The notes beneath the pieces were generated by a model that was not told the origin of the DNA, made no database searches, and worked only from the letters and a program-made list of their open reading frames with translations. The position numbers and the translations under genes are program-made. A stretch of 21,515 nt of DNA from a virus. Positions 1 through 8,594 of this stretch are shown one piece after another (within the stretch, counting starts at the first letter, position 1; the number at the start of each line of letters is the position of its first letter). Location: positions 1 to 21,515 of IMG/VR virus record IMGVR_UViG_3300005528_000232. One strand, written 5' to 3'.

Positions 1-3000
1 TTCAGGTTGCTGCCCAGCGTGACGCCCGAGATCGTGCTTGCCGCCAACTTACTGACAGCGATCGCGGCCGCCGCATCAATATCAGCATTGACGACACTGG
101 CCGCAGTCAACGTGTTGGCCCCGGTACGCTTGACAACACCAGTCGTCGATAGGCCGGTAATCGTGTCGCGGCTGATCGATCCGCCCAGGCTGGTCGATGT
201 CCCGGCGATCGTGATCGCACTTGCGGCCAGTTTGCTGATCGAGATCGCCGCACTGGCATTGATATCCGCATCGACGATAACCCCGGCGGCGATGGCCGTT
301 GTGATCGAGGTCGACCCACTGCCCGTCACATCACCCGACAATGTGATCGTCTGATTGGCGGTCAGGTAGGTGTTCGTGTCCACAGACAGCGTACCATCCC
401 CGGCCGATGTCTTCACGAAGCCATTGCTCGTCAGGTTCGAGATCTTCGAGACCGTCAGGACGTTCGGGATATCATCATCAACCAGACTCCGGAAGGTCGG
501 AGCCGCATCCACTCCAGCTGATGGACCGGCAAAGATGCTATTCTTGACCTGCGTGGCAAGTGTTCCGGTCAACGTGCCTGATGATGTAACCGGCGATCCG
601 CTGACAGTGAAGATCGAGGGTAGGCTCAAGCCAACGCTTGTAACAGTGCCACCGCCGCCACCCGTGATCGTGGTCCACGACAAGACACCATTGCCATCGG
701 TCGTCAGTGCCTGACCATTGGTCCCATCATCGGTCGGCAAGGTGAAGACGAGGTTCGCGCCAGCCGCCCCGGCCTTGATTGTGGTCGTGTTCGAGTTGGT
801 CGCATTGCGAAGGATCAGTTCGCCCGTCAGACTTGCACTATTGCCCAGGTCGAGCGAAGTCCCAAGATACAGAGTGCGCGGCTTGACTGCCGTCGTCCCG
901 ATGTCCTGCGTGTTGTTCCCGTCGTATGGACGCCAATGCTTGTCCGTGTTGACGCCCCACGCGGCCGTATTGTTCTGGTAGATGACGAATGGATGATTCG
1001 TCTGTGATCCGACGATAGCCTGGTCAGGTGAGAGACCTGCGATCGTTCCCATTCGAGCCGTCACGCTGTTGGTCGTGTCCGTGACATAGATCGCCGGATT
1101 CGCGCCAGCCTTGGAAACGGTCAGGGCCTTTGCGCCATCGTCCCAGGTGAAGTTCGCACTTCCGGTCAGAACGTTCGATCCGTCGCCGAATCCGATTCGC
1201 GTAGCCGTCAGGCTGACCGATGCCGCATCGATGCGCCGCTCTGTCACTCCATCGGACACCCAGTAAAGACCAGTCTGACCTCCGGCATCCTTTGCAAAGA
1301 GAAAGCCCGTATTGGCCGGGGCCGTCACCGGCGATGACTGCTCTTCCATCGCCAGATGCCCGGACAGCTTCTGATACCCGGCGTGAGTCATTGCGTAGTT
1401 CTGACTGCCAGTGATCCGGCTTCCCGAGATGCCCGGAATGGTCGCCGATGCCGCGCCGTTCGTATCGTAGAAGGTCGAGAACTCACGATGGCCAAGCTGG
1501 ATAAACGGCATCCCGTCTGAGTGCACGGCCTGACCGTTCGTGTACGATGCCCCCATCGTCTGCACACCGGAGAGCGCGTCAAAGATACCAGCCTGATCCG
1601 TTGTCACATAGTCAAATTTGATCGGCGTGACGGTTCCACTTGTCGGCGCGATGACCTGGGTCGAGAAGAAGTTCGCATAACTCCCCGCCTTGCATCTGAT
1701 CCCGTAATCGGTGAATGCTTCGACGTTGCATCCGATCAGATTGACCCGGCAGTAATTGTCCGTGCCGTCCTCAGCTGTGTTATTACCGAAGAGTCCCCAG
1801 GTCGCCGGATTGCCACCGTCGATACCGTTGCATCCGATCATCGTGACAGATCCGGATCTCACTCGATATGCCGCCTTGTTGTCGGCGACGTTGTGGACGT
1901 AGCATCGAATGAGCGTGGTATCGTTGCTGCCCCATAGGTCGATACCGTGACCCAGGGCGGTGGACTGCTGATCTACGTCGAGGGCCTCGAGTAGGATCGT
2001 AAAAGCCGCATTCGCGCCTGACTCGGTCTTGACCGCCGACCCGCCAACATCGTTGAACCGGAGATTGCGAAGCGTGAGATTGAAGACGCCATTGCCGCCA
2101 GTGTCGCGGACTCTGATGCCGTGATTCAACGCTCCGGTCGATGTGCCAACAAAGCCGAAGTTTTCGATCGTGACAGTGTGACTAGTCGCGGTCGTCGTGT
2201 CGATGACGATGATCGGCTCAGGATGGATCGAATGAAATGTCGTTCGCCCTGGCCCGTCGCCTTTCAGGATGACGCGATTCTTGGAATCGAAGACCAAAGG
2301 CGATGCCCAGTAATCACCGGCGGGAACGTATAGCGGCTTGCCAGCCGTGTAAGCATCGTCGAACGCTTCGAGGATTGCGGCCGTATCGTCGTGATAAACG
2401 GTCTGAGACGTGACGCTGGTTCCGGCGGCGTTGGCAAGCGTGAACGTCGATCCGCTGATTGCGCTAACCGTCGTCACGAGATCCACAAAGGGAGTGACCG
2501 TCGCGCCGTTTGTATGACTCGCCGGTGATGTGCCATTGTAGGCCCGGATGACGTTCTGTAGCTGAGTCGATGTCTTGCCGTGGTAATAGACGATCTCATT
2601 ATTGATCTTTGCCATCCCCGATGCGGCAAAGTTGGTCGTGCTGGCAAGAGTGATCGTCGTAACGCTCGAGTTGATCGAGCCGTTCAAGGTCGAGGTCCCG
2701 GCGACCGTTCCAGCGCCGATGACTCTGATTCCGTGGCCGACCTTCCATCCAGTCGCACTGGCAACGGTCAGCGACGATGAGCCGCTCGAGATCGTGCCGG
2801 TCGTCAGTGTGAGGTCGGCCGCGACTCGGTATTTCGGCGATGCCGCATTCACCCAGTCCGGAGTGATAGAAGTGACAACCGTTCGATCATTAGCGGAATC
2901 GTCGGTGACGGCGAACGAATCATCGAAGGCCGTGATCATCCTCTGTTGCGTGTAGTCACTGCCAATCTGGACGAGCTGATATGTCGCTGGCGATCCGAGA

Positions 3001-3692
3001 CCGCTGACCCGGCCGATGCTGGCCGCTGAATCACGTGCCGGGAATCCTCCGAATCGATGCTGGTTGCTTCGACCACTACACCCGCCTGAATCCGTGTAGA
3101 GCTTGTTACACGTGGTCAGACCACCGCTATACCCGCATTCGGTCCCCTTGAAGACCCAAGGACACTTCGACCCGACTCGGCGATTGGAGAGCGTCGGAGC
3201 AAGGTTTACATCGGTCGCAACGTCAAGCTCGAGGTACTCTTCCGTGTACCTGGCCCCGGTGACGGTGCCAAACAGGAAGATCAGATCCGTCTCGACGGGC
3301 GATGCGCTGACCTCGCCGATCAGGATCTTTCGGATCGTCACCTTCGATCCGATGAACATATCCGATCCGGATGCTTCCGTCCGGCCGGCTGATGTCACGT
3401 AGTCAATTGCGAAATCGTCGCGGAATCCGAGATCCCCGTTCTGGAGACGGATCGTCACTCGGCCCTGACCATTGCCGAGTTGACTCACGATCGAGCCGAC
3501 CGACTTCAATCTTGGGACATAGACATCAGGCGATATTAGGCGATAGGTCGTCTCCTGAGTGGCATAGTAAAACGTATCATACGTCCCACCGCCGGCAGGG
3601 CGCTCGATTGTGACCGCTTCAATGACCTCCGGCATCTGCCCCTGATCACTGCTGAGAGTCACCCAGTTTGTAAAAGCCCCTGTTCTCGCCAT
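1..3692 (-). CDS. Giant tail-tip/tail-fibre protein with gpL-like N-terminus and pectate-lyase-like beta-helix (C-terminus beyond window)
   Basis: A single frame stays open from the ATG at 3692 to the left edge: 1,230 codons and no stop. AGGGAG lies 9 bases before the ATG, which is 3 bases after the tape-measure stop. Residues 1-220 look like a lambda gpL-type tail-tip protein: C177, C186, C195 and C205 followed by NQHRFGGFP, the region that binds an Fe-S cluster in gpL relatives. Residues about 430-700 open like pectate-lyase-3 proteins (DDTAAILEAF, LYVPAGDY, ILKGDGPGRTTF) and continue with beta-helix-like repeats, suggesting host-glycan binding or cleavage. Residues about 766-1110 carry common fibre stem motifs (GTVTSVGLSLPSIFTVSGSP at 1015-1034), and 1120-1230 are ADI(N/D)A-SKLAAS repeats. 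The protein probably sits at the tail tip and recognises the host. The domain calls are from motif recognition; the enzymatic activity is inferred. Confidence 0.88.
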   Translation of the reverse strand, partial: MARTGAFTNWVTLSSDQGQMPEVIEAVTIERPAGGGTYDTFYYATQETTYRLISPDVYVPRLKSVGSIVSQLGNGQGRVTIRLQNGDLGFRDDFAIDYVTSAGRTEASGSDMFIGSKVTIRKILIGEVSASPVETDLIFLFGTVTGARYTEEYLELDVATDVNLAPTLSNRRVGSKCPWVFKGTECGYSGGLTTCNKLYTDSGGCSGRSNQHRFGGFPARDSAASIGRVSGLGSPATYQLVQIGSDYTQQRMITAFDDSFAVTDDSANDRTVVTSITPDWVNAASPKYRVAADLTLTTGTISSGSSSLTVASATGWKVGHGIRVIGAGTVAGTSTLNGSINSSVTTITLASTTNFAASGMAKINNEIVYYHGKTSTQLQNVIRAYNGTSPASHTNGATVTPFVDLVTTVSAISGSTFTLANAAGTSVTSQTVYHDDTAAILEAFDDAYTAGKPLYVPAGDYWASPLVFDSKNRVILKGDGPGRTTFHSIHPEPIIVIDTTTATSHTVTIENFGFVGTSTGALNHGIRVRDTGGNGVFNLTLRNLRFNDVGGSAVKTESGANAAFTILLEALDVDQQSTALGHGIDLWGSNDTTLIRCYVHNVADNKAAYRVRSGSVTMIGCNGIDGGNPATWGLFGNNTAEDGTDNYCRVNLIGCNVEAFTDYGIRCKAGSYANFFSTQVIAPTSGTVTPIKFDYVTTDQAGIFDALSGVQTMGASYTNGQAVHSDGMPFIQLGHREFSTFYDTNGAASATIPGISGSRITGSQNYAMTHAGYQKLSGHLAMEEQSSPVTAPANTGFLFAKDAGGQTGLYWVSDGVTERRIDAASVSLTATRIGFGDGSNVLTGSANFTWDDGAKALTVSKAGANPAIYVTDTTNSVTARMGTIAGLSPDQAIVGSQTNHPFVIYQNNTAAWGVNTDKHWRPYDGNNTQDIGTTAVKPRTLYLGTSLDLGNSASLTGELILRNATNSNTTTIKAGAAGANLVFTLPTDDGTNGQALTTDGNGVLSWTTITGGGGGTVTSVGLSLPSIFTVSGSPVTSSGTLTGTLATQVKNSIFAGPSAGVDAAPTFRSLVDDDIPNVLTVSKISNLTSNGFVKTSAGDGTLSVDTNTYLTANQTITLSGDVTGSGSTSITTAIAAGVIVDADINASAAISISKLAASAITIAGTSTSLGGSISRDTITGLSTTGVVKRTGANTLTAASVVNADIDAAAAIAVSKLAASTISGVTLGSNL
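36..272 (-). repeat. Fibre-stem repeat (two visible copies)
   Basis: Two copies of an 18-residue unit are encoded at 272-219 (DADINASAAISISKLAAS) and 89-36 (NADIDAAAAIAVSKLAAS). They are separated by a spacer with SLGGSISRDTITGLS and VVKRTGANTLTAAS. The second copy is followed by ISGVTLGSNL at the window edge, so more copies may follow outside. Units of this kind are common in phage fibre stems, where they are thought to form trimeric shaft segments. Confidence 0.7.
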
Positions 3693-3695
3693 CTG

Positions 3696-6600
3696 CTACA
3701 ACTCCCTATTCAATCGAGCCCTCTTGAGGGTCGCCAGGACTGCACGCTGGCCAACGCTGGTATTCTGAGCCGATGCCACGATCCTCGATGCATCATCCTT
3801 TCCGACAACGAGATTGACCACAAGTTCGATCGGAGCAGACTCTTGTGGCGCCGTTCGCGTCGGGGTGAACGCTGGCATTATACCACCCAGAGCGAAGGCC
3901 GGCAGGCCTGCCGAGATGCCCGGTCCCTGCGGTACGCCAACTGCCCGGAAGATCCCCGGCCCGGCGATCGATTGGATCGCTGACTGCTGATTGCGAGTCA
4001 GTACCATCTCGCCCGGTCGAACCATCGCCATCACGGAATCATATCCGCGATCTGTGCCCGGCACGATACCACCCGTAGCGAACTCTGGGACGAGTCGAGA
4101 CTGGATATCGTTGACCTTCGCGCCGGTCTTCGCGGCCGGAACGACGGTCGATTCGAAGAGGTTCCGGAGGTCCCTGACCTGGTTGGTCAGACGCGACTCG
4201 CGGACGCTCTTGGTCTTAAGCGTCTGGATCTGTGAAACGAACGTCGCCAGGATCTGAGTTTCGAAGATCTGCCGGGCCTGCTCGAGTGTGACACTGCCGG
4301 AGCGCGTCTGATCTCGAAGCTGGCTGATCTGGTTGATAGCATCCTGAAGCCAAACGCCTGACTGTTCTTCATCGGAACGGCGCTGCCGGGAACGGCCGAG
4401 GAGGAATGAGCCGGCCAGCAGCGCCCCGCCGACCACCGCAGTGATCGGATTCGAGAAGAGTGGAGCAAGGAAGCCAAGGCCCGAGAGAGCCCCGCCTGCC
4501 GCTAATGCCGCAGGGGCCGCGGTGATACCGATGCCAAGCGCCGCGCCTCCTATACCACCCAAGACCTGACCAAGTCTGGATTGTCCACCAAGTCCCGCGC
4601 CAAGCTGCACGCCGAGCAATGGAGCGATCCCAGCCAGCGCGCCACCTGATCCGGCAGCGCGACCGAAGCCGAACCCCCGGAAGAGTCCGGATAGTCCCGC
4701 GAATGCGCCGACGGTCGCCGATCGGCCGAAGATGCCAGCCGCACCCGCTGCGCCGATTCCGGCCGTATTGGCGATCGGCAATCCGCCAGCGATCCCGATC
4801 GGAGATGCCGCGCCACCGAAGCCGCCTCCAATGATCGGAAATCCGCCACCGAAGCCGGGAGTCAGGAATCCGCCGCCACCGCCGAAGATTGACCCAAGAC
4901 CGCCGGAAATGACGCCGCCTATACCACCGCCAGCCCCGCCAACTGAAACGCCAGCCACGCCCCGCCCAGCGCCACCAATCGCCCCGGTAATACTCCCAAA
5001 AAGCTGACCGAAGACACGTTGAAGGCCCAGTCCGAGAAGGTCGCGGAAGAACGTGGTGAATGACTGCTTGAGGTTGTCGAGGAGTCCCTTGACGTTGCCG
5101 AAGCTCCGAGAAAGATTCTGACCAAGGCGCTCGAATGCGTCGCCCGTGCTTTCGACCTCGCTGTTGAATCCGCGCATAAAGCGCTGAGCCGCTGTCAGCT
5201 CTACGCCCAGGTTGCGAATCGATGCGATCTCGAGCTCGATCTCTGCCCTTCGTTGTGGCGTGATCTCTGACATCGCCTGTTCGGCCTCGAGCATCGCAAT
5301 GCGAATATCACGCTCCTGTCTAAGAAGCGCGTTGATCTGTTGCCGGGCTTCGGCCTGAGTCAGTGCGCCCAGGTCGAGTTGATTCTCGATCTCGAGCTGT
5401 TGCCGCCGGATGTTGACGAGTTCGACCGACTGAGCAATTTGGATCTCACGTTCGCGATTGATGCGATCTCGAGCCGCTTGGACTCGCGGGTCGACTAGCT
5501 CGACGACCTGCTCTTGTGGCGTCTTGGTCGGGTCGAACGCCGGGAGATTCCGGGCCTCACGGATGCCAGCTTGCAAGCGCTGGAGATCCTCGAGCTGCTG
5601 CTTTGCGTTCGTGAAGTCCGCGCCGACCGGCAAGGACAACTCGCGGCGAAGGTCCACCAGATCCTGAAGGACCTTCCGCTTCTTCTCGGCTTCATCGATC
5701 TGAACGAGGATCTGGAACTCTTTCGACGATGCGCGATCGAAGATGGCCAGCTCTCGATTCAGCTCAGCGAGTCGGGACTGGTATTGCTGGAGGAGGGTGA
5801 TTTGCTTCGATGCTTCTGCCCTGGCCGCTTCTGGTCTGGCTCCGGTCCCGCTGGCTGGCGTTGGCGTGGTCGGTAGTCCGGTCAGCAGATTGACGCCACG
5901 AGTGGACAATGGTCCGCCACGCTGCGCCGCTTCTCGCTGACCAGCGATGACCGACTGAGTGTCGATAAACCGACCGCCGCGCCTTGTTACCGGCTGACCG
6001 TCAAGGCCCGTGAAGATGCCTTGCGACTCCTGCACCTTGCGAAGCGAAAGATCAATCTGATCGGTCGCTGATTGGACAGCCGTTCGATACTGATACCATC
6101 CGATAGCTCCGGCTGCGAGAATGCCGCCAATGCCGAGGATGACCGGATTGAGACTGGTCAAAGCGATGGTGAGACTTGCCGGACCGGTGAGCAGTGCGAT
6201 CACGCTTGTCAGCAAGGAAAGCATTGAACTCAGACCAGTCAGTACCGGGCCGAATGCCGCCGCGAACAGACCGAAGACCACGATGGTCTCCTGCACCCCC
6301 GGAGGCAATGCCGCGAACTTGTCGAGTAGCTCAATCAGCTTCGGGATGAGCCGATCAAGGACAGGCTGTAATGTGCGAAGGAGCGATTCACCCAGCGGGG
6401 CCAGTGCGGTCAGAATCTGATCCTTGGTCTTGGCGAACCGACCAGCGATCGACTCTTGCACGTTGGCGAAGCGTGGATCTGTCGCAATGGCCGTAGCGAG
6501 TCCGTCAACGTATGCCGCCATCGTCAGCTTCCCGGATTCCTTTAACTGCCGGAGCTTGTTGGCGTCCTTGGTCCCGAATGCCTGCTCGAGCAGCTGTTCA

Positions 6601-7196
6601 AAGATCGGCACCTGACCGAGGGCCTCTTTAACGTCTGATCGCTCGAATCCTTGGGTAAAGATCTGCTGGATGTTCCGGGCGAATCCTTCCACGTCTGGAA
6701 TCGTGAAGACCGCATTCAGCCGCCCGATGGATTTGATGATGTTATTGATTGACTGGTCGGTGACGGTGCCGAGCGCCTTGAACTGGCTGAAAAGCGTCGT
6801 GGCGAATCGCGTCGTAACACCTGGCGTCTCTTGTGCGATCCGTCGGAACTCCTCGAGCTTCTTATTCGCGGCATCGACTGACCCGGTGAGTGCGGCCAGT
6901 GTCTGACGGGACTTGTCGATATCGGCCGCAGCCTTTAGAGCCGTCGCCCCTAGCCCGGCCAGTGGGAGACTCACCTTCAAGGACAACTGCTGGCCTACGT
7001 TGGAGAATGCCTGTTGGATCGACTGGAGAGAGCTGGTCAGCCCTCGAGAGAAGGCATCGCCAGCACTCCGACCGGCCGCGCCAGCTTGCGGCACAATCCC
7101 ATCAAGGGCGGAGCGTATGGCGGTCGCCAACTGTTGCGCGGATCGTTGCGCGTCTCCCGTATCCAGACCAACCGCGATAACTATTGGTGCCGCCAT
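3696..7196 (-). CDS. Tape measure protein
   Basis: At 1,166 residues this is the tail-length ruler and a substrate of the tail chaperones. The N-terminal part (about 75-270) matches the phage tape-measure N-terminal domain, with AALTGSVDAANKKLEEFRRI and a following helical bundle. Hydrophobic segments lie around 300-370 (ETIVVFGLFAAAFGPVLTG, NPVILGIGGILAAGAIG). A long charged alpha-helical/coiled-coil region covers about 455-720, and a strikingly Gly-rich stretch about 735-870. The C-terminus has the familiar FATGGIVPGTDRGYDSVMA...PGEMVLTRNQQSAI motif. At roughly 1.5 angstroms per residue it would predict a tail near 175 nm (inference). The start follows the previous TAG by 4 bases with GGAGGG upstream. 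Size, position before the tail-tip gene and motifs make the call firm. Confidence 0.95.
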   Translation of the reverse strand: MAAPIVIAVGLDTGDAQRSAQQLATAIRSALDGIVPQAGAAGRSAGDAFSRGLTSSLQSIQQAFSNVGQQLSLKVSLPLAGLGATALKAAADIDKSRQTLAALTGSVDAANKKLEEFRRIAQETPGVTTRFATTLFSQFKALGTVTDQSINNIIKSIGRLNAVFTIPDVEGFARNIQQIFTQGFERSDVKEALGQVPIFEQLLEQAFGTKDANKLRQLKESGKLTMAAYVDGLATAIATDPRFANVQESIAGRFAKTKDQILTALAPLGESLLRTLQPVLDRLIPKLIELLDKFAALPPGVQETIVVFGLFAAAFGPVLTGLSSMLSLLTSVIALLTGPASLTIALTSLNPVILGIGGILAAGAIGWYQYRTAVQSATDQIDLSLRKVQESQGIFTGLDGQPVTRRGGRFIDTQSVIAGQREAAQRGGPLSTRGVNLLTGLPTTPTPASGTGARPEAARAEASKQITLLQQYQSRLAELNRELAIFDRASSKEFQILVQIDEAEKKRKVLQDLVDLRRELSLPVGADFTNAKQQLEDLQRLQAGIREARNLPAFDPTKTPQEQVVELVDPRVQAARDRINREREIQIAQSVELVNIRRQQLEIENQLDLGALTQAEARQQINALLRQERDIRIAMLEAEQAMSEITPQRRAEIELEIASIRNLGVELTAAQRFMRGFNSEVESTGDAFERLGQNLSRSFGNVKGLLDNLKQSFTTFFRDLLGLGLQRVFGQLFGSITGAIGGAGRGVAGVSVGGAGGGIGGVISGGLGSIFGGGGGFLTPGFGGGFPIIGGGFGGAASPIGIAGGLPIANTAGIGAAGAAGIFGRSATVGAFAGLSGLFRGFGFGRAAGSGGALAGIAPLLGVQLGAGLGGQSRLGQVLGGIGGAALGIGITAAPAALAAGGALSGLGFLAPLFSNPITAVVGGALLAGSFLLGRSRQRRSDEEQSGVWLQDAINQISQLRDQTRSGSVTLEQARQIFETQILATFVSQIQTLKTKSVRESRLTNQVRDLRNLFESTVVPAAKTGAKVNDIQSRLVPEFATGGIVPGTDRGYDSVMAMVRPGEMVLTRNQQSAIQSIAGPGIFRAVGVPQGPGISAGLPAFALGGIMPAFTPTRTAPQESAPIELVVNLVVGKDDASRIVASAQNTSVGQRAVLATLKRARLNREL

Positions 7197-8359: not shown

Positions 8360-8366
8360 CCTCCTA
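8360..8366 (-). promoter_or_regulatory. Ribosome binding site fixing a TTG start
   Basis: TAGGAGG on the minus strand is complementary to the 16S rRNA 3' end and sits five bases before TTG at 8354. Its first three bases are also the TAG stop of the zinc-ribbon gene, so termination and initiation are coupled. Confidence 0.75.
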
Positions 8367-8594
8367 CCATTTGTCGATCGGACACCTGAGACGGCCGATC
8401 CTCGTCTTTGTGCGGACATCTGAGCCAAACCATTGCGGACATCCGCACTCGCCGCAATAGTAGCCCGTTCGCGTTTCAATAATCGACGGGCAGGACTGAC
8501 AGATCGCCAGTCGTCCGCGCTGGATGTGTGTGGCTGATTCACCGTAGCGGACCAGCCACCACATAGCACGGAGAAAGGATATCAGGCGCAACAC
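8364..8594 (-). CDS. Small zinc-ribbon protein (CxxC...CxxCxC...CPIDKW)
   Basis: This is a 76-residue protein. The C-terminal half reads CQSCPSII, then GYYCGECGCPQWF, a basic linker and CPIDKW at the very end. This spacing of CxxC, CxxCxC and CP-x2-KW is a recurrent pattern in small phage proteins and is expected to bind zinc. The N-terminus is Trp-rich (AMWWLVRYG) and may pack against a partner. The start is probably the GTG at 8594, which overlaps the previous gene by 13 bases; an ATG at residue 11 lacks a ribosome site. Function is unknown. Its place between tail tube and chaperone suggests a role in tail assembly or simply a passenger gene. Confidence 0.75.
   Translation of the reverse strand: MLRLISFLRAMWWLVRYGESATHIQRGRLAICQSCPSIIETRTGYYCGECGCPQWFGSDVRTKTRIGRLRCPIDKW

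Follow-up and report, generated by a model that had tools for sequence, protein, structure and literature searches.

A lambda gpL-type tail tip protein with a predicted tailspike-like adhesin on its C-terminus in uncultured siphophages

Can a subunit of the siphophage tail tip ring carry a complete host-binding fibre on its own polypeptide chain? The question is raised by a 21.5-kb linear virus record from an uncultured tailed phage (21,515 nt; "the window" below is this whole stretch of DNA), whose minus strand encodes a siphovirus head and tail module with terminase, head protein, portal, scaffold, capsid, connectors, tail proteins and tape measure. Immediately after the tape measure gene (3696–7196, minus strand; PF20155, E 4e-10; PHROG 1533, E 3e-21) comes an ORF that is preceded by GGAG, starts with ATG at 3692 and runs without a stop to the left edge of the window (1–3692, minus strand), where it is incomplete at 1230 aa. 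The original prediction was that this ORF joins a gpL-like cysteine cluster to a receptor-binding protein with a beta-helix and a fibre stem. The complete frame is found in a near-identical contig, L002 (L002:8001–13493), which differs from the window by one base in the 3692 downstream of the start and by one in the 8000 upstream of it. There the ORF is 1830 aa long, compared with about 200–300 aa for a standalone gpL, and the fusion gene sits between the tape measure gene and the gene of a J-like hub. Two other ORFs of this region may be recorded here: a 76-aa ORF among the tail genes of the window (8364–8594, minus strand), which has clustered cysteines (ICQSCPS...YYCGECGC) and matches PHROG 13558, of unknown function, and an ORF that follows the tail tip genes of L002 but is read in the opposite direction (L002:15967–16650, minus strand), which by eye only resembles flavin-dependent thymidylate synthase (ThyX).

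The fusion is a single open frame in ten contigs (the window and nine others) from different metagenomes, and thus is no assembly artefact. Although the window and its relatives exist as metagenomic contigs only, a chimera that joined two genes during assembly is so improbable that we reject it, since eight lineages from different samples have the same join and a conserved linker while their gpL parts are 44–69% identical to that of the window.

The first ~218 residues of the protein are a genuine relative of lambda gpL. A likeness to gpL had been proposed for the first ~220 residues, and it extends over the whole domain in profile–profile, PDB profile and fold searches, including the beta-sandwich that holds none of the cysteines. 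The profiles were built from gpL relatives that degenerate DNA patterns for C-x-W-x-[FY]-[KR]-G-x-E-C-G-Y retrieved from IMG/VR; among the 57 proteins aligned, 47 match PF05100 (Phage_tail_L). The profile of the fused clade aligns with that of standalone gpLs over 187 columns (P 99.8%, E 1.1e-29), and the profile of all 57 sequences finds lambda gpL in the PDB (8iyk_L, E 2e-29). Residues 1–170 (3183–3692, minus strand) form hub domain I (HDI), the N-terminal tail-tube-like beta-sandwich of the gpL type, as judged from hhalign, AF2 and Foldseek. Compared with standalone gpLs by itself, this part still gives P 90.8 and E 1.2e-6, with shuffled and reversed controls below P 1%; in the split-domain comparisons as a whole the shuffled and reversed controls were all below P 3%. 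HDI is modelled with pLDDT mostly above 90, and the top Foldseek match of the AlphaFold model is again 8iyk_L (E 2e-7, at a moderate TM-score of 0.46), followed at lower ranks mainly by tip, hub and baseplate proteins of T5, DT57C, JBD30, RcGTA, Sf11, T1, E217 and R4C.

With the whole protein alone, matches to Pfam, NCBIfam and single PDB sequences are weak, and profiles were used instead. The full protein has lambda gpL as its sole match among PDB sequences, over the cysteine cluster and with E 0.56; a PF05100 search matched none of six fused records; and TIGR01600 scores the fusion protein at 14.7 bits, against a cut-off of 70.75. Weak single-sequence scores and a miss by the curated families are what one would cite for an N-terminus that is not gpL at all and a cluster that is an unrelated zinc or disulfide motif. 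We reject this as very improbable: the controlled profile matches and the fold matches to gpL cover both domains, the same cysteine spacing occurs in standalone gpLs, and the gene directly follows the tape measure gene. The miss is read as a limit of PF05100 and TIGR01600, because the 57-sequence profile does reach lambda gpL with the E-value given above.

The cysteine pattern predicted for this ORF, C177-x8-C186-x8-C195-x9-C205, is present exactly, and NQHRFGGFP is found at residues 210–218; the original end point at position 3059 truncates the motif, since GGFP finishes at 3039. The Fe-S-type domain comprises residues 171–218 (3039–3182, minus strand; KCPWVFKGTECGYSGGLTTCNKLYTDSGGCSGRSNQHRFGGFP) and on its own gives E 1e-24 in hhalign. 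The codons of its putative ligands 1 to 4 lie on the minus strand at 3162–3164 (Cys177), 3135–3137 (Cys186), 3108–3110 (Cys195) and 3078–3080 (Cys205). Four cysteines within 29 residues are reached in 26 of 5000 shuffles of the fusion protein, so that the clustering by itself is just moderately unlikely. That the cluster is nevertheless beyond chance follows from conservation: no other stretch of the family is as conserved as the cysteine segment, and C205 and F214/G215/G216 are invariant or nearly so across the 57 gpL proteins, although the DNA search pattern, which forces cysteines 1–3 and the W/G/E/G/Y positions, leaves C205 and FGG free. The C-terminal gpL-type domain thus has four conserved cysteines, the motif C-x-W-x-[FY]-[KR]-G-x-E-C-G-Y and the GGF(P) ending.

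Lambda gpL has the same plan, an HDI beta-sandwich followed by a C-terminal four-cysteine Fe-S domain that closes in GGF(P), with C-x8-C inside C-x-W-x-[YF]-[KR]-G-x-E-C-G-Y-x-G and a gene located between tape measure and J. The cluster cysteines of lambda gpL are 173, 182, 205 and 212 (PMC10721106), so the first spacing is identical while the later ones differ, x22/x6 in lambda and x8/x9 here; the loop between the second and third cysteines is 22 residues in lambda and 8 in the fusion. The x8-x8-x9 spacing of the fusion recurs identically in the standalone gpL of L133. According to work by others that is cited in PMC10721106, the gpL cysteines hold a 4Fe-4S cluster. By analogy, residues 171–218, a segment with an AF2 pLDDT of only about 55–68, should bind a 4Fe-4S cluster via Cys177/186/195/205. 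Two features depart from lambda: its gpL is 232 aa long and stops after the Fe-S domain, whereas the fusion in L002 adds more than 1600 residues, and at the fusion locus L follows the tape measure gene without an intervening M gene.

What follows the Fe-S-type domain is, as predicted, a beta-helix and a fibre stem, borne out by the single 1830-aa frame in L002, by AF2 and Foldseek, and by PF12708 in the homologue L005. The chain first passes through a linker domain conserved in the clade (residues 219–284; 2841–3038, minus strand; IGxVSGLGxxATYQLIQxGSxYxxQRxITxFDDSFxVTDDSxNDRTVV in the fused-clade alignment), which AF2 models with low confidence. Residues 292–434 (2391–2819, minus strand) make up one or more small beta modules, 'GTISSGSSSLTVAS...GIRVIGAG...TTVSAISGSTFTLA', and over residues 333–419 the identity to 'tail tube B' of Pelagibacter phages Skadi is 40%. 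Residues 435–752 (1437–2390, minus strand) are predicted by AF2 and Foldseek to fold as a right-handed beta-helix of the pectate-lyase/tailspike type, with pLDDT mostly 75–97 and PDB matches to GH87 glucanases, K1 capsule lyase, AlgE epimerases and many phage tailspikes. Pfam gives no match to the beta-helix of the window itself; the homologue L005 matches PF12708 (E 1.5e-25) and tail spike PHROGs. A repetitive fibre stem occupies residues 753 to at least 1230 (1–1436, minus strand) and runs past the window. The contig L007 has, in place of a beta-helix, DUF5907 repeats in its stem and a C-terminus of the tail-fibre type.

One gene need not mean one working protein. Tail proteins are sometimes processed, and standalone gpLs end exactly where the linker starts, as might be expected if proteolysis or an internal start parted the product into an ordinary gpL and a fibre that attaches separately. 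We find this improbable: a simple scan of residues 150–420 found no internal in-frame start with a Shine–Dalgarno sequence, the linker is kept across the clade, and all lineages stay fused though separate genes would suffice.

The fused form is confined to one clade. We surveyed ~210 gpL loci in IMG/VR, among the matches listed, which are a sample rather than a census. The number of residues after the first cysteine is 41–371 at the non-fused loci, leaving aside ORFs ended by a contig edge, compared with 667–1654 at the fused ones, and the long extension is carried by a single clade of eight lineages. A motif specific to the clade retrieved nine IMG/VR contigs, 9/9 of them fused. The same motif has no match in GTDB species genomes, a scan of genome contigs with the gpL domain found no relative, no cultured phage record covers the fusion, and no gpL–fibre fusion was found in the open-access literature. 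In the tree, the fused set lies entirely on one side of a branch with support 93/96; the fusion arose once, in a single clade. In the closest row outside the fused set, L183, gpL is a standalone protein of 240 aa and the genes run TMP, L, J-like gene, further tail gene, which makes the addition of an adhesin onto an existing gpL the likely history; the placement of L183 is itself unsure because of its long branch.

Clade members keep the gpL part and swap the adhesin at a sharp junction. Specifically, L004 and L006 are 93% identical in DNA across gpL, linker and module, and identity falls to the random level from about residue 350–385, a break that coincides with the start of the beta-helix.

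We consider it very likely that the protein is a tip hub subunit of the lambda gpL family that carries a complete trimeric-fibre-type adhesin, made of linker, beta modules, beta-helix and stem, on its C-terminus. In such an arrangement gpL would act as a covalent socket for exchangeable adhesins, with members retaining the socket and exchanging the adhesin by recombination. The last ring of the lambda tail consists of three gpL and three gpJ, with the Fe-S domain on the outer surface (PMC10721106), and we infer a similar geometry here: the Fe-S domain would sit on the outside of the tip and the chain would run outward from it into the fibre. An outward exit is not guaranteed, given that the C-terminus of the gpL counterpart in JBD30 is buried (PMC11445458). 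A beta-helix fibre needs three chains, and three copies of gpL would provide them, so neither an adaptor protein nor a docking site for side fibres would be required. The beta-helix may bind, and possibly depolymerise, a surface polysaccharide of the host. When lambda binds LamB, its 4Fe-4S domain undergoes a rigid-body rotation away from the axis (PMC11101478); because this domain rotates off the tail axis as the tip opens, stem, linker and Fe-S domain could relay a binding event to the hub.

The J-like hub gene that follows the fusion encodes 452 aa in L002 and matches lambda gpJ over residues 121–484 only (P 87%, E 4.5e-6); it also matches the PHROG central tail fibre J, and a search of its profile against the PDB gave no direct match. 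Lambda gpJ is 1132 aa long and beyond its hub has FNIII, fibre and receptor-binding parts, so the hub here seems to be without a central fibre. In L002, L006 and L007 there is no other large gene between the fusion and J. In L163 the fusion and the J-like gene are separated by a further fibre-like gene of 1139 aa, and the fused adhesin thus need not be the sole adhesin. In L005 the J-like gene (L005:12316–13703) is apparently split into two overlapping frames (251 and 246 aa), by a frameshift or a sequencing error.

The beta-helix might just clear capsule or decorate the tip, leaving irreversible binding and triggering to the J-like hub or another fibre. This alternative leaves the fusion itself untouched, bearing on the role of the adhesin alone, and is a possibility that we take seriously without favouring it. 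A saccharide can be the primary receptor on which a siphophage tailspike acts, as O-antigen is for Sf11 (PMC12724387), and the fibre-like gene of L163 would be a candidate for another fibre; however, the J-like protein matches just the hub part of gpJ, and three contigs have no other large gene at this place. The opposite assignment is that the receptor role has moved from gpJ to gpL, with the J-like protein a bare 452-aa hub, the gpL fibre the main adhesin, and binding passed to a rotating 4Fe-4S domain so that the tail opens. We put this forward tentatively and think it rather doubtful; if it were true, the Fe-S domain would couple the adhesin mechanically to the hub, and this would point to a role for the cluster.

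The gene after J (112–183 aa) looks gpM/Dit-like by eye, but the scores gave no support for gpM (PF05939 E 0.058, hhalign P 1%); its PDB matches to Tako8 and to haemagglutinin/sortase are off-topic and were treated as chance. In two contigs it contains a ~70-residue module, 'GSITSGQATLTVASA...TTVSSIAGSVLTLAANASTTV' (L002:15358–15906, L006:4891–5439), which is absent from L005:13803–14141 and L163:8463–8801. Modules of this kind are also present in the gpL fusion, in certain gpL inserts (L062 is an example) and, among Pelagibacter phages Skadi, in 'tail tube B', and the module looks like a mobile tail-decoration module.

A gpL that carries its own adhesin may be set beside several known arrangements. 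Sf11, likewise a siphophage, has tailspikes of the beta-helix type (Sf6/P22-like) at its tail tip, but binds them non-covalently, as six trimers, through a helix of its distal tail protein that serves as adaptor (PMC12724387). The gpL counterpart in the upper baseplate of JBD30, gp50, likewise has four metal-binding cysteines (147, 156, 238 and 245), but its C-terminus lies in the baseplate core and receptor binding is left to separate trimeric proteins that dock on the hub (PMC11445458). Hub fusions are already known from the single-chain hubs T5 pb3 and LSH1 gp25, the latter with gpL-like and gpJ-like hub domains and an antireceptor domain in one chain. Their adhesin follows HDIV, as in gpJ, whereas our phage has the gpJ-like domains in a separate gene; the authors of the LSH1 study term the gpL C-terminal region hypervariable. 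A parallel in function is found in RcGTA g13 and the hub of roseophage R4C, which combine gpL-type attachment and a four-cysteine ion-binding domain with sugar recognition on the hub. Sugar recognition on the tail tip ring is therefore not unprecedented. There the oligosaccharide-binding domain lies within the Fe-S domain (RcGTA 168–249; R4C 162–243) and the fibres are separate proteins docked on the megatron, whereas the fusion phage has a beta-helix fibre behind the Fe-S domain. Sugar-binding inserts in gpL-type hubs are thus already known, and it is a whole tailspike on the gpL C-terminus that appears to be new, a step from inserted domains to an entire tailspike or fibre at the C-terminus.

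For siphophages this would add another way of mounting an adhesin on the tip, a covalent C-terminal extension of gpL in place of docking to the distal tail protein or hub, or of gpJ/BHP. With the gpL socket kept and the adhesin swapped at a sharp junction, host range may change without an adaptor. Since standard family models miss fused gpLs, annotation is liable to label such proteins as tail fibres or as unknown. The function of the lambda Fe-S cluster is still to be characterised (PMC10721106), and an Fe-S domain that bears a fibre is a natural system for asking whether it is a mechanical or a stabilising element.

Other gpLs of the survey carry additions between the second and third cysteines. 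Inserts of about 300 residues with 'DGNLVLY'-type repeats occur at this place in L118, L033, L060, L050, L051, L055, L020 and L130, and match Pfam B_lectin (mannose-binding) with E 5e-7 in L118 and E 2e-4 in L055, both below the curated cut-off; the site of these lectin-like inserts is that of the oligosaccharide-binding domain in RcGTA and R4C. In L092, L105 and L045 the same loop holds long alanine/glutamate-rich inserts that are probably helical.
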